Shown in pieces: positions 4,014 to 8,285 of a DNA stretch of 10,855 bases. Position 1 is the first letter of the stretch, and every line of letters begins with the position of its first letter. The notes under the pieces were generated by a model that saw only the letters and a program-made list of their open reading frames with translations, was not told the DNA's origin and made no database searches. Source of the stretch: Anaerolineae bacterium. Its GTDB lineage: Bacteria; Chloroflexota; Anaerolineae; B4-G1. A program made the translations under genes and the position numbers. Where the stretch lies: NCBI GenBank assembly GCA_016783285.1, contig JADHWW010000171.1, forward strand, positions 1 to 10,855, in the 5' to 3' direction.

Positions 4014-4655
4014 CTAGCTGTCGAGACTGATCATGCCCCTGCGGATGGCGTATTGGGTCAGTTCGGCTATGCTACGGAGATGGAGTTTGTCCATCAGATT
4101 CGCCCTATGGGTCCGAACCGTTTTTTCGGTGATGCACAACCGTTTGGCGATCTCCCGGCTTGAGTGACCCTCGGCAATCAGTTGCAGCACCTCCCTTTCC
4201 CGGCCGGTCAGTTGCCCGTAGCTGTCCTTGGCTATCACTTTGGCCTGCCGGACGTATTCTTCGATCACCGTCCTGGAAATCGTGGGGCTGAGGAAGGAAT
4301 CGCCCCGGTAAACGGCCTGGATGGCCGCCACCAACTCGGTGGGCGCCGCTTTCTTGACCACGTACCCCGAGGCCCCCGCGCTCAGGATCTGAAAGACGTA
4401 CTCCTTGTCTGCGTGCATGGTCAGGACCAGGACCTTGACCTCCGGGACCCAGCGCTTGATCTGGCGGGTGGCCTCCAGGCCGTTGAGGCCTGGCATGCTA
4501 TAGTCCATCAGCACCACATCGGGGAGCAACTGCTGAGCCATCTGGACCGCCTCTCTCCCGTCCTCGGCCTCGCCAATGACCTCGATGCCGGGCTCATCCG
4601 CCAGCAGAGCGCGCACACCCTTTCGCACGATGGTGTGATCCTCGGCCAGCAGCAC
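4014..4655 (-). CDS. NarL/FixJ-family response regulator (receiver plus LuxR HTH)
   Basis: A 213-residue DNA-binding response regulator if started at GTG 4655. The receiver spans residues 1-115, with acidic pair Glu5-Asp6, phospho-acceptor Asp51 in VVLMDYSMPG, switch Thr79 and Lys101. A LuxR-type helix-turn-helix lies at about 145-205 (LTGREREVLQLIAEG, then REIAKRL and TEKTVRTH). It is the expected partner of the HisKA_3 kinase encoded upstream. Its start is abnormal. GTG 4655 begins inside the first beta strand, lacks the usual leading residues and has no Shine-Dalgarno. A strong AAGGAG followed by ATG-ATG exists at 4727-4711 but is separated from the gene by 49 bp of heptad repeats and is out of frame by one base. 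Removing those 49 bp gives MMIRVLLAEDH. The gene may be poorly translated, translated from GTG, or switched by repeat-unit number. Two terminators follow it. Confidence 0.9.
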   Translation of the reverse strand: MLLAEDHTIVRKGVRALLADEPGIEVIGEAEDGREAVQMAQQLLPDVVLMDYSMPGLNGLEATRQIKRWVPEVKVLVLTMHADKEYVFQILSAGASGYVVKKAAPTELVAAIQAVYRGDSFLSPTISRTVIEEYVRQAKVIAKDSYGQLTGREREVLQLIAEGHSSREIAKRLCITEKTVRTHRANLMDKLHLRSIAELTQYAIRRGMISLDS

Positions 4656-4661
4656 CCGGAT

Positions 4662-4710
4662 GATTTCGGATTGCCGATTTTCGATTTTCGATTGGCGATT
4701 GCCGATTACT
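4662..4710. repeat. Heptad array A1 (seven 7-bp units) inside the regulator start
   Basis: Plus strand, seven units with no gap: GATTTCG, GATTGCC, GATTTTC, GATTTTC, GATTGGC, GATTGCC, GATTACT. The consensus is GATTNNC. It lies exactly between ATG-ATG (4716-4711) and the ATCCGGGTG that begins the conserved regulator sequence. All units are in one orientation. Its length of 49 bp is 1 mod 3. Confidence 0.95.
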
Positions 4711-4727
4711 CATCATGCGCTCCTTGG
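4711..4727 (-). promoter_or_regulatory. Stranded Shine-Dalgarno and start codons of the regulator gene
   Basis: This is a 17-bp non-repeat island between arrays A1 and A2. On the minus strand it reads CCAAGGAGCGCATGATG: AAGGAG, then ATG 3 nt later and a second ATG 6 nt after the Shine-Dalgarno. It looks like the ancestral initiation site of the NarL-type regulator, now separated from the coding sequence by array A1 and out of frame by one base. Confidence 0.75.
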
Positions 4728-4822
4728 GATTTTCGATTCACGATTTTCGATTGGCGATTCACGATTGCCGAATGTCGATTTGCGATTGCAGTTCGCAAAT
4801 CGAAAATCGAAAATCGAAAATC
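4728..4822. repeat. Heptad array A2, palindromic
   Basis: Plus strand: nine GATTNNC-type units (4728-4790, one reading GAATGTC), a GTTC apex (4791-4794), then four units in reverse orientation, GCAAATC and three GAAAATC (4795-4822). The apex forms an 11-bp perfect hairpin, TCGATTTGCGA (4775-4785) with TCGCAAATCGA (4793-4803). The last unit overlaps the TGA stop of the four-helix-bundle gene by two bases (4821-4822). Confidence 0.95.
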
Positions 4823-5174
4823 ACTTCCTTCCCCGGGCCGTCTTGCGGGAGGCGACAAAGATGGCCGTCAGTTCATCAGCCTCTTGGATCAGCTCCTCCA
4901 CCCGGGACACTGGCATCAAATTGGCTTCCACCACCAATTCTAGCCAGAAGAGAGACTCGTCGGCCTCTTCCTCCACGATACCCAATTTGTGAACGAAATC
5001 AGCCTGTGAACGCGCCCGGCACACCGCCCGGTAATTCGCTGCTACCGACGTGGCCGAGCGCAGGAGTTGATTGCCGATCACGCGACCCGTTTGCGTCCGC
5101 GGTAGAGCCTCTATCAGGCGAATCACCCGCAGCGCAAACTGCTTCGTCCTCCCTTTCAACTCCTCCTTGTCCAC
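4821..5174 (-). CDS. Four-helix-bundle protein, 23S rRNA intervening-sequence/Avd-like family
   Basis: A 117-residue protein of the four-helix-bundle family, the group that includes proteins encoded in 23S rRNA intervening sequences and the Avd accessory protein of diversity-generating retroelements. Family signatures in order are FALRVIRLIEALP, GNQLLRSATSVAANYR, a DFVHKLGIVEEEADES segment, FWLELV, and the AIFVASRKTAR end. The length is typical. The start is GTG 5174: AAGGAGG lies upstream with 6-nt spacing. A longer open frame to 5273 is only translated heptad repeat (RFSISDF-like) and is not family sequence. Molecular role is unknown for stand-alone members; they are basic, oligomeric and probably bind nucleic acid. 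It is flanked on both sides by palindromic heptad arrays and interrupts a kinase-regulator operon, suggesting it travels as a cassette. No reverse transcriptase or variable repeat is visible, so an Avd role is unsupported here. Confidence 0.92.
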   Translation of the reverse strand: MDKEELKGRTKQFALRVIRLIEALPRTQTGRVIGNQLLRSATSVAANYRAVCRARSQADFVHKLGIVEEEADESLFWLELVVEANLMPVSRVEELIQEADELTAIFVASRKTARGRK

Positions 5175-5188
5175 GCCCTCCCTCCTTC

Positions 5189-5283
5189 GATTGCCGAATG
5201 CCGATTCTCGATTGCCGATTTCCATTCGGAAATCCCAAATCGAAAATCGAAAATCCGAGATCGAAAATCGCAAATCCTAAATC
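5189..5283. repeat. Heptad array B, palindromic
   Basis: Plus strand: five units (GATTGCC, GAATGCC, GATTCTC, GATTGCC, GATTTCC; 5189-5223), an ATTC apex (5224-5227), then eight units in reverse orientation (GGAAATC, CCAAATC, GAAAATC, GAAAATC, CGAGATC, GAAAATC, GCAAATC, CTAAATC; 5228-5283). GATTTCC and GGAAATC form a perfect hairpin around the apex. The outermost unit encodes Ile-stop of the kinase on the minus strand. The layout matches array A2 (units, NTTC apex, inverted units). Confidence 0.95.
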
Positions 5284-8200
5284 GGAATTCTCATGGTCAG
5301 TCGAGTGCCCTGCCCGGGACGAGACTGAATGTCAAAGCTGCCTCCCAGCAGGGCCACCCTTTCTTGTATTCCCAACAGGCCCGCCCCGCGCTCTCGGAGA
5401 TGGGCGGTATGCTCTTCCGCCTCAAAGCCCCGGCCGTTGTCTTGGACCACGGCGGTGACGGTGGATTCGCTACGCTCCAGCCGGACAGCCACCCTGCTCG
5501 CTCCTGCGTGCTTGGCCACGTTGGTTAGCGCCTCCTGGACCGTGCGGTAGACGGCCGTGGCCACATCCGGGGTCACTCTCTCCTCGAAATCGACAGCTTC
5601 CAGTTCGACGTCGATGCCCATTCTCTTGATATATCTGTTCAGGTACCAGCGCAGCGTTGGCAGCAGACCGAGGTCGTCGAGCATCTGGGGCCGCAGGTCA
5701 AGGGCCATTTGGCTCACTCGCTCGTCCACCTCCGCCAGAAGCGAGCCTACGTTGGCCAATCTCTCCCTGGCCTTGGGGGCAACCTCCGCCGGCAACTCTC
5801 TTTCGATGGCCGCCAGGTCAAAGCCCATGGCCGTCAGCGCCTGCCCCAGCTCGTCGTGCAACTCTAGGGAGATCCTGCGGCGTTCCTCCTCCTGCGCCTT
5901 AAAGAGCCGGATCGAGAGTTTCTCCAGGTCGGTGGTGTGCGTCCGAGCCTCCTCCACCAGCCGCGCGTTCCCCAGGGCGATGGATGCCTGGTTGGCAAAG
6001 GTGGTGATGGCCGGCGCGTCGGCCTCTGTCAGGCCGGCGCCGGCGACCAGCAACAGGCCGATCCTCTCGCCGCTCACCGTGAGCGGAGCAGTGATGCACT
6101 GCTCCAACCCCAGCTTGGCCGCCATCCGCGGAGCCAGCGAGCGTACCCGCTTGGGCAGCCCCCCGGCCATGAAATCGGCGGCTGGCTCGTCAAAGGATGT
6201 CTCTCCCTCGGTGAGGACACGCTGGAAGACAGGGCTCTCCACCAGCGGGACCCGGAAGGTCTGCAGCGAGAGGCCGGTCAGTTTCTCCGCTGCCCGCAGC
6301 AAAGTCGGCTTGATGGTCAGGTGGCGTAGGGTCAGGTACTGCTGGTCATGGGTCAGAGCGAAGACGAAAGCATGGTAGCCCAGCTTGACCACCTCGTCAC
6401 CGACGGTGCGATAGACCTCCTCGGCCGTGCGGGCGCGCTGCACGGTCTGGGCCGCCTGGCTGAGGGCCAGCAGCAGGCGCTGTCCGCGGGCGGTCTCTTC
6501 CAGCGAGCGCCGTAGCGCTGCCTCTGCTTTCTTGCGCTCGGTGGTGTCGAGTCCATAGACATTGAGATAGTCTTCCTCCACGACAGGCGCAAAGATCAGG
6601 GTAAGGGTACGGTCCCCGCACTTGATTTCAATTTCTCGCGTCACACCAGAAGTGAGAACATCGATATTCAATCCAGACCAGCCGTCGGGCAAAAGCTGGC
6701 CGATTTGGCAGCCCCAGAGGTCCAGCAGAGGCAAACCAGCCTCGTTGGCGTAGAGGATAGTGCCATCTCTTGCGATCCGCAGAACGGGGTTGGGGTTTTC
6801 GCTGGGGAACTTGGCCAACCGTGCTACTTGCTGCTCCCTCTGTCTGCGCTCGGTGATGTCTGTGCCCTGGGAGATGGTGGCCACGAGGGTCGTGCCATCC
6901 TCAGCATAGATGTTCGCCGAGTTCCAGAGCACCAGCCGGGTTTCCCCATCTCTGCAAAGAATCGAGATCTCCACCGACTCCCAGAATTCACCGCCAAGAG
7001 TACGGGCGATCTTGCCCAGTGACTCGGCGCGGCTTGTTTCAGGGAAGAGCATGGGCAGTTCCTGGCCGATGACCTCGTCGGCCGGATAACCGGTGAGATG
7101 CTCAAAGGCCGTGTTGAAACGGGTGATTCGCTCCCCTGGGTCCCAGATGATGATGGGGGCGTTGGCATGGTTGATCAGGTTATCCAGGTAATCGCGGGTC
7201 TCCCGCAGAGCCTCTAGCGTAGCATCCCTTTGGGACTCTGCCCTTTCTCGGGCGATCGCGCTGCCGATTTGGGCGGTAATTGCTTCGATGGCGTCGCGGG
7301 CGTGAGGGGGCACCTCGTACCGATTATGGGAAGCGACGTTCAGGCAGGCGACCACACGATCCTCATGCCGCACTGGAACGACAGCGTGAGCACGCAGACT
7401 CTCGCGTCTCTCAGCCTCGTCTAGCTCCACTCCCAGTGACAGATGTTCGGTATAGATTGGCTCGCCGGCCGTGACGAGCCGCGCCTGGTCCGAATCCCCA
7501 TCAAAGTGTGATGCACTCTTGATGAAATCGGGCGGCAGTCCTTGATGAGATACGATGTCGCATGCACCAGAGGTCTCGTCCACTAGATAGATGCCGCCGC
7601 AGTCCATTTCTGAGACGTGGATGGCGGCCTCCAGGCATAGGCGCAGAGTCTCATCTAGTCCCAGCGCAGTGGCTAGTGCCAGGCCCAGATCGCGTTGGGC
7701 GCGGATCAGGTTGTCCGCCCGCTTGCCCTCGGTGATATCCTCCAGACTCCCTTCGTAGTGCAGCACCCGACCCTCACCGTCGGCGACAGCGCGAGCGGTA
7801 TCCTTCACCCAAAAGCTCGTTCCGTCGCGCCGTCGCCATTGCGCCTGAAAGTCGCGCACCAACCCCTCGCGGTCCATCATGGCCTGCCATCGCACGCGAT
7901 CTTTGGGGTTCGCATACGCGCTGGCGGCGTTGGCCGCCAGCCCGGTATCCCGATCTGGGAAGCCAAGCATTTCCAGCATAACCGAGTTCACGTCGAGGAT
8001 CTGCCCATCTGGCGTGGTGCGGTAAAGACCAACAGGCACGCTCTCAAACAGGCTGCGGTAGTGTTCCTCGCTCTCCCGCAGCGCTTCTAGCGTAGCATCC
8101 CTTTGGGACTCCGCCAGCACGCGCTCGGTGATGTCCTGCACGGTCCCGACAAATTCCATCACATGACCGTCGGCCGAGCGGACGGGACTGCCATGCACGG

Positions 8201-8285
8201 CGGTGTGTCGTACCGCGCCATCGTCCGCACGAACGATTCGATTCATGCGGTGATAGGATTCGCTCCCGGCAATGGCTTTCTCCAT
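5277..8285 (-). CDS. Multi-PAS/GAF sensor histidine kinase (HisKA_3), 3' half of a frameshifted gene
   Basis: The 1002-residue open frame, numbered from ATG 8285, contains: the C-terminal part of a PAS domain (1-53); PAS (70-187, VPVGLYRTTPDGQILDVN); GAF (195-345); PAS (363-480, near-identical to one in the 1753-3366 protein); PAS (495-583); GAF (605-775); HisKA_3 dimerisation with phospho-acceptor His810 in LELHDELGQ; and HATPase_c with N box Asn922 (EALTNVAKH), DNGRG at 949-953 and GAGLLG at 967-972. It autophosphorylates and should pass phosphate to the NarL-type regulator encoded downstream. ATG 8285 has no Shine-Dalgarno and lies inside a PAS domain whose first half is in the other frame, so this is not a natural start; see the frameshift site. 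There are no transmembrane segments, so sensing is cytoplasmic. The last codon and TAG stop come from heptad array B, so the native C-terminus has probably been replaced. Confidence 0.93.
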   Translation of the reverse strand: MEKAIAGSESYHRMNRIVRADDGAVRHTAVHGSPVRSADGHVMEFVGTVQDITERVLAESQRDATLEALRESEEHYRSLFESVPVGLYRTTPDGQILDVNSVMLEMLGFPDRDTGLAANAASAYANPKDRVRWQAMMDREGLVRDFQAQWRRRDGTSFWVKDTARAVADGEGRVLHYEGSLEDITEGKRADNLIRAQRDLGLALATALGLDETLRLCLEAAIHVSEMDCGGIYLVDETSGACDIVSHQGLPPDFIKSASHFDGDSDQARLVTAGEPIYTEHLSLGVELDEAERRESLRAHAVVPVRHEDRVVACLNVASHNRYEVPPHARDAIEAITAQIGSAIARERAESQRDATLEALRETRDYLDNLINHANAPIIIWDPGERITRFNTAFEHLTGYPADEVIGQELPMLFPETSRAESLGKIARTLGGEFWESVEISILCRDGETRLVLWNSANIYAEDGTTLVATISQGTDITERRQREQQVARLAKFPSENPNPVLRIARDGTILYANEAGLPLLDLWGCQIGQLLPDGWSGLNIDVLTSGVTREIEIKCGDRTLTLIFAPVVEEDYLNVYGLDTTERKKAEAALRRSLEETARGQRLLLALSQAAQTVQRARTAEEVYRTVGDEVVKLGYHAFVFALTHDQQYLTLRHLTIKPTLLRAAEKLTGLSLQTFRVPLVESPVFQRVLTEGETSFDEPAADFMAGGLPKRVRSLAPRMAAKLGLEQCITAPLTVSGERIGLLLVAGAGLTEADAPAITTFANQASIALGNARLVEEARTHTTDLEKLSIRLFKAQEEERRRISLELHDELGQALTAMGFDLAAIERELPAEVAPKARERLANVGSLLAEVDERVSQMALDLRPQMLDDLGLLPTLRWYLNRYIKRMGIDVELEAVDFEERVTPDVATAVYRTVQEALTNVAKHAGASRVAVRLERSESTVTAVVQDNGRGFEAEEHTAHLRERGAGLLGIQERVALLGGSFDIQSRPGQGTRLTMRIPI
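6845..7243. repeat. PAS-module direct repeat, copy 2
   Basis: The second copy of the 399-bp PAS module, at a constant offset of 3977 bp from 2868-3266 and about 95 percent identical. It encodes residues of about 348-480 of the kinase half. Differences are scattered and gap-free, as expected for a recent intragenomic copy or gene conversion. Confidence 0.92.

Follow-up and report, generated by a model that had tools for sequence, protein, structure and literature searches.

An S23 gene between inverted heptad arrays in a kinase-regulator operon: a candidate mobile cassette with relatives in several phyla

In the window, by which we mean the whole 10,855-nucleotide stretch of Anaerolineae DNA that was analysed, a gene of the S23 (23S_rRNA_IVP) family lies on the minus strand at 4821..5174 and encodes 117 aa, with a GTG start at 5174 and a TGA stop at 4823-4821. 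PF05635 was the sole Pfam family found in this gene, and the profile search scored it at 58.6 bits, well within the family given the curated cut-off of 33.8. The protein also matches PDB 2rld_A at the sequence level (E 1.8e-17); solved S23 relatives are four-helix bundles and are described as pentamers on the basis of the five chains of this one entry, 2rld, together with the title of the Xcc0516 paper. Homologues of the window protein range from 99% identity downward and many are metagenomic, while the named ones include Chloroflexota and Anaerolineae, plus one Flavobacteriales. The gene order on the minus strand is kinase, S23, NarL-type regulator, receiver protein, PAS protein, and NMT1-like binding protein. 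Profile matches identified the gene directly upstream (5277..8285, minus strand) as a PAS/GAF histidine kinase with HisKA_3 and HATPase domains, and the gene directly downstream (4014..4655, minus strand) as a NarL-type response regulator. No recombinase, nuclease, integrase, or reverse-transcriptase domain was found in any of the seven window ORFs that were scanned, the S23 gene among them.

The S23 gene is flanked on both sides by arrays of inverted heptads, and an earlier note, made from the sequence alone, had proposed that the gene and its two arrays form a mobile cassette. The upstream (5') array (5189..5283) runs from GATTNNC heptads through an ATTC apex to GNNAATC, and the downstream (3') array (4728..4822) has the same inverted GATTNNC/GNNAATC heptads around a GTTC apex. 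Reading the sequence confirmed the shared design that the note had described (GATTNNC units, an NTTC apex, inverted GNNAATC units), with some units imperfect in both arrays. The junctions are as tight as had been claimed: the TGA stop codon of S23 shares bases with the first GATT in the downstream array, and the Shine-Dalgarno sequence AAGGAGGGAGG (5177..5187, minus strand, read from the sequence) stands one base off the upstream array. That array also overlaps the kinase stop codon TAG (5277-5279), where it starts as the heptad GATTTAG. The motif TAGGATT, in which the upstream stop codon leads straight into the array, was observed in the window and in two other genomes, G081 and G109.

Each array was scored by its best lag-7 self-match out of 28, with 500 dinucleotide shuffles per array as the null. 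The downstream array scored 25/28 (4724-4823) and the upstream array 21/28 (5186-5285), while a third heptad array at the start of the response-regulator gene (4662..4707) scored 24. In all three cases 0/500 shuffles reached the observed value, and a chance origin of the window's heptad arrays is excluded. The PF05635 gene does lie between two inverted GATTNNC arrays, and the span given in the earlier note covers this gene and both arrays correctly but leaves the third array outside. When folded as RNA, the downstream array was far more stable than its shuffles (z = -4.7, with 0/200 equally stable), and the upstream array moderately so (z = -2.1, 7/200). The third array falls between an upstream ATG, preceded by the Shine-Dalgarno AAGGAG, and the reading frame of the regulator. 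At 4656-4718, this ATG with its good Shine-Dalgarno does not share the reading frame of the regulator, and 43 nt lie between them; a change in the number of heptads in the third array could switch the regulator frame in a phase-variation-like manner.

S23 genes of several phyla were found to be bracketed by tandem arrays with a period of 7, often 8; the unit varies between elements, but within an element one arm is the reverse complement of the other. We evaluated 90 loci, of which L136 gave no domain; 88 of the 95 domains were full length and 85 elements were usable, and lags 4-11, 13, and 14 were tested, with 12 left out. A lag-7 match of at least 19/28 was observed upstream of 43/85 and downstream of 42/85 S23 elements, compared with 92/2370 control windows. 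Lag 8 was reached by 18 elements upstream and 18 downstream, lag 14 (twice 7) was also high at 26 and 24, and lag 6 gave 4 and 2, while lags 4, 5, 9, 10, 11, and 13 gave at most two elements per side. A best period of 7 or 8 with a score of at least 18 on both sides was found in 54/85 elements, and the two periods agreed in 53 of these 54. Upstream arms paired with their own downstream arms at a mean of 24.0, versus 10.5 for swapped arms, and in 61/85 elements the own arm outscored every other arm among the 85 possible partners; the window is among the other 24, its own arm ranking second. These comparisons show that the unit is specific to each element, yet matched between its two arms.

We considered arms to be matched and inverted when their score was at least 22. 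By this measure, matched inverted arms flank 48/81 S23 genes, compared with 1/236 other genes (loci L146-L205). One-sided arrays are common around other genes, 70/236 controls having a period-7/8 array on one or both sides, and therefore the matched arm pair is the specific feature. Thirteen of 25 S23 genes in a class survey had matched inverted arms, with 5.9% of swapped pairs also scoring because units are shared there, and a diverse set gave 15/27. Bacteroidota S23 genes had weaker arms, matched and inverted in 6/30. The Bacteroidota set, of which the 30 best-scoring loci were used, is the sole S23 set drawn regardless of arrays; the S23 sets from a 23-genome and a 16-genome pick come from genomes chosen for having GATTNNC arrays, and the set of window-S23 relatives was chosen for window-like S23. 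Conversely, among inverted array pairs 150-1600 nt apart, 131/193 contain S23, at loci that are S23-biased, and by eye no other recurring cargo was seen in the 24 listed non-S23 pairs with gaps of 300-900 nt.

The earlier note had proposed a search for GATTNNC arrays. GATTNNC was rejected as a cassette signature: other S23 elements carry other heptads or octads, and the units seen in period-7 S23 flanks include GTAGGTT, CGGTGGA, CAGTAGT, TTGAAAG, and GTGTCAA, among others. The unit was compared with the protein across 165 elements with enough flank, after five loci present twice in the set were dropped and flank-similar pairs were removed. For the 501 pairs with at least 55% protein identity, the mean arm score was 16.3, versus 12.6 when permuted, and 0/999 permutations reached the observed mean. 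The share of pairs with an arm score of at least 22 was 0.9% at 20-30% identity, 10% at 55-60%, 22% at 60-65%, and 35% at 65-75%, and above 75% it was 5/8 pairs. Across all identities unit and protein were weakly rank-correlated (0.11), and even among close pairs there are some with different units. Judged by eye, relatives of the window S23 (54-80% identical) carry mostly GATT-type units, with non-GATT exceptions at L213, L218, L227, L231, and L233. GATT-type units were also found at the four plasmid loci inspected out of 26 plasmid matches, which come from Planktothrix, Gloeocapsa, and Candidatus Chlorohelix. The comparison shows that S23 proteins close to each other in sequence tend to have a similar unit even where their sites are unrelated. 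The variation of the unit, its tendency to follow the protein clade, and the span of several phyla go beyond the earlier note.

Several individual copies of the gene are described here in their own right. The four plasmid loci (L381, L382, L383, L384) hold GATT-armed S23 genes inside annotated defence-type operons, after DISARM drmD in a Planktothrix agardhii plasmid and, in plasmids of Candidatus Chlorohelix and Gloeocapsa, with DUF1156 genes on one side and Swt1-HEPN genes on the other. Array lengths vary between Planktothrix strains that are ~97% identical at the S23 plasmid locus. In Xanthomonas, Dokdonella, and Luteimonas (L345, L347, L358), S23 lies directly upstream of an accC-like gene. 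All three carry GGGAATC-like heptads on the upstream side, and L345 alone has them downstream too. A same-site series (L207, L212, L222, L225) has S23 directly before an argB-like kinase gene, with no downstream array, and looks like a settled, vertically kept copy. Tandem or close duplicates of S23 were observed at L061:1-1160, G009:C203:168-1010, and L183, which perhaps arose by recombination between arrays. Here and below, the genes naming the rpoB-rpoC, argB, and accC junctions are what we take them to be from their reading frames.

Occupied and empty versions of the same junction were then available for comparison at several places. At Moorena site A, arms and S23 together measure 601 nt in G437, 588 nt in G449, and 0 nt in G436; the flanks are ~97% identical, and the empty site in G436 has no heptads. 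The earlier note had looked to such pairs for the ends of the element and any target duplication. They returned a unit of gene and arms, 588-601 nt long, but no clear target-site duplication at this one site compared, where only a weak resemblance was seen (CTAG/CTAA in G449, CTAA/CTGA in G437). At Moorena site B, an S23 cassette with GGGAGCA arms is present in G436, and solo arrays of another unit without S23 are present in G437 and G449. A third Moorena junction holds a cassette in G437 and solo GAATTTA/GAATGAA-type arrays in G436, G450, and G449, the solo arrays abutting the same stop codon with differing far flanks. The fourth has a cassette within GGGAATC arrays in G436, a solo array of another unit in G450, and other sequence with other repeats in G449 and G437. 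Some genomes have a different far flank at the third and fourth junctions, so that these do not make clean pairs.

Nine of 11 rpoB-rpoC loci from one family were judged by eye, L245 and L246 being left out as one split gene. The cassette was found at two of the nine, G170 has a 3-nt gap, and G153 has a short spacer; among the rest, four show other inverted arrays by eye and one is of unclear type. The window's own kinase-regulator-receiver operon was found in G028, where the kinase stop overlaps the regulator start with no insert, and neither a PF05635 match nor a GATT array was found in that genome. The gene is thus not always at this operon position, contrary to one of the two outcomes that the earlier note named as refuting a cassette. 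At the same junction, G081 has GATT arrays with an S23 copy broken after ~46 residues. Its upstream heptad palindrome was observed to be interrupted by a further inverted element of ~120 nt (L247:860-990, 1025-1162). In G109, the gene for the closest S23 (80%) has a NarL-type regulator on one side and a receiver gene on the other. No empty sites were found in the plasmid collection, in which three near matches to the Planktothrix locus were all occupied, and phages gave two distant matches.

The occupied and empty sites at Moorena, rpoB-rpoC, and the kinase-regulator junction support the mobile cassette proposed in the earlier note. Compared in sequence, arms and gene are present or absent together at intercistronic junctions, which is direct evidence that they are inserted or lost as a unit, and solo heptad arrays are dispersed in the same genomes and differ between close relatives at some of these junctions. 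The empty sites could be precise losses instead of a pre-insertion state. We favour, as somewhat the more probable reading, a widespread mobile cassette of the form arm-S23-arm with solo REPIN-like derivatives, and we infer that S23 drives its movement by recognising the arms and promoting their copying. In such a process, hairpins of its own unit class, whether RNA or single-stranded DNA, would be recognised by the S23 protein, which would promote copying into junctions by stop codons with the help of nucleases and polymerases of the host or of some other factor. The copied unit could be arm-gene-arm or a solo arm, and the solo arrays would be non-autonomous offspring of S23, as REPINs are of RAYT. 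The arms, lying against the stop codon and the ribosome-binding site, would keep the insert tolerable; they may fold out of the way in the mRNA, and RNase III might cut their hairpins as it does in the intervening sequences of rRNA.

How far arrays and S23 genes go together bears directly on this reading. A species-genome scan found at least 115 stretches with four consecutive GATTNNC units, from many phyla by record titles. Under a narrow profile, S23 lay near 1/115 of these array loci among the matches listed, namely L061 in a Verrucomicrobia genome, where gene and array are tandemly duplicated. The idea that any heptad array marks an S23 gene was rejected on this count and on the 70/236 control genes. 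At the level of genomes, PF05635 was present in 23/23 array-bearing genomes of a first pick, with 1 to 23 matches each, and in 14/16 of a second pick (18 loci, 16 genomes searched), G446 and G448 being without, compared with 0/14 control genomes in both surveys. The outcome that the earlier note regarded as fatal, arrays throughout genomes with no association to the gene, was seen in part: arrays are mostly solo, but matched arms favour S23.

Among 298 genomes of one class, 70 had GATT arrays and a window-like S23, 52 had S23 only, 15 had arrays only, and 161 had neither, an odds ratio of 14.4 with kinship ignored. Restricting S23 to the closest proteins (E at most 1e-35) gave an odds ratio of 18.3 with GATT arrays versus 2.4 (p 0.11) with a reversed-pattern control; this control, itself a heptad, gave 3.9 (at least 1) and 17.3 (at least 5) against S23 at the loosest threshold. 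Six genomes have at least five GATT matches and no window-like S23, and four of these have other PF05635 matches. The profile search found no PF05635 match in the other two, G103 (70 GATT matches) and G188 (21). Genomes of this kind (G103, G188, G446, G448) can reflect arrays needing no S23, relics, or incomplete assemblies. Of 24 genomes picked for having neither GATT arrays nor window-like S23, 11 had a PF05635 match, nine of them over the cut-off.

These figures leave some room for arrays that spread independently of S23, by slippage, hairpin-primed synthesis, or another mobile enzyme, with S23 as a passenger that enters or is captured by inverted arrays. The mostly solo arrays and the four array-bearing genomes with no detectable S23 would be expected in that case, as would the many different units found side by side in Moorena; the exceptions among the window-S23 relatives likewise indicate that units can change within a clade. 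Capture by an existing array is, however, at odds with the empty sites at Moorena site A, rpoB-rpoC (G170), and kinase-regulator (G028), which carry no array, and with the tendency of the unit class to follow the S23 protein, and we consider an S23-independent origin rather unlikely. Less probable again, and in our view doubtful, is that the arms are cis-regulatory RNA, with S23 binding its own hairpins for expression or mRNA stability and the solo arrays serving as sites of an S23 regulon. Where a downstream array was detected (91/165 elements), the median distance from the beginning of the S23 stop codon to the array is indeed 7 nt, the window arms fold as hairpins, and the unit tends to follow the protein clade. 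Yet arrays change unit or vanish at orthologous junctions despite upstream flanks that are 94-98% identical, a turnover that seems too fast for a conserved regulon. An ordinary MITE-like non-autonomous transposon, moved in trans by a known transposase with S23 as cargo, would explain why the ends are inverted, why solo arrays are dispersed, and why a genome can carry several copies of S23, but is very improbable, given that the ends of different elements share a period and mostly no sequence, that we know of no transposase recognising such ends, and that there is no clear target duplication at the one Moorena site.

Returning to the mobile cassette, a broader form of it can be put forward tentatively, with rather less than even confidence: S23 may serve the mobility or maintenance of a class of elements lacking any known recombinase, with ends set by period and self-complementarity instead of sequence, and the heptamer repeats of bacterial genomes may largely be non-autonomous offspring of this class. 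On this view, 23S rRNA intervening sequences would have arisen when copies of the same element landed in rRNA. The S23/IVP proteins and the heptamer repeats, both long orphans, would share one testable explanation, and if the role proposed for S23 is true, this would be a mobile element without a recognised recombinase whose ends are free in sequence and fixed in period. Cassette copies from several phyla occupy rpoB-rpoC-, argB-, and accC-like junctions and annotated defence operons, DISARM for example. Between close species, the sequence at a junction changes.

Parts of this arrangement have been described in other systems. The accessible text of PMC4990558 describes the S23 ORF of the 23S rRNA intervening sequence (IVS) as bordered by complementary sequences that form a stem, reports that the IVS stem-loop is cut by RNase III, and, citing Ralph and McClelland 1993, gives the proposal that the IVS is a mobile element with the ORF as its mobility component. 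The window likewise has an S23 ORF between inverted terminal repeats, but its site is a protein operon (histidine kinase/response regulator) and not 23S rRNA, and no Rfam match was found in the window. The cassette differs further in its heptad-array arms, its many dispersed copies, and its solo arrays. PF05635 genes are also placed inside cas loci in the available portion of PMC3936711 and inside rRNA insertions of CPR bacteria in that of PMC11270868. According to the accessible part of PMC10053308, Avd of diversity-generating retroelements is structurally related to PF05635; unlike in those retroelements, no adjacent reverse transcriptase domain was found in the seven window ORFs scanned.

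For the repeats, the accessible part of PMC4692102 describes 7-base intergenic tandem repeats in Xanthomonas and Nostoc (GGGAATC), the Xanthomonas heptamers often forming inverted pairs, near the 5' neighbouring ORF, and with different genes across related species. The arrays described here share the 7-nt tandem units between genes, and an S23 gene of Xanthomonas euroxanthea was found flanked by GGGAATC-kind units; in contrast to the present arrangement, that part of PMC4692102 draws no link between heptamers and S23. No publication connecting the S23 family with heptamer repeats turned up in the literature searched, a collection that lacks bioRxiv preprints and most subscription journals. The rRNA IVS already offers an example of an S23 ORF between inverted repeats; the present arrangement is undescribed in the literature searched.

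In REP/RAYT systems, a gene is flanked by palindromes, many solo palindromes occur per genome, and the repeats are specific to the gene family; RAYTs are HUH (Y1) transposases. The S23 cassette resembles them in pairing a flanked gene with solo palindromes or arrays genome-wide, but S23 has no HUH (Y1) transposase domain, and its palindromes are defined by period, not by sequence. The nearest precedent for the cassette is the 23S rRNA IVS, and the nearest system in behaviour is REP/RAYT.
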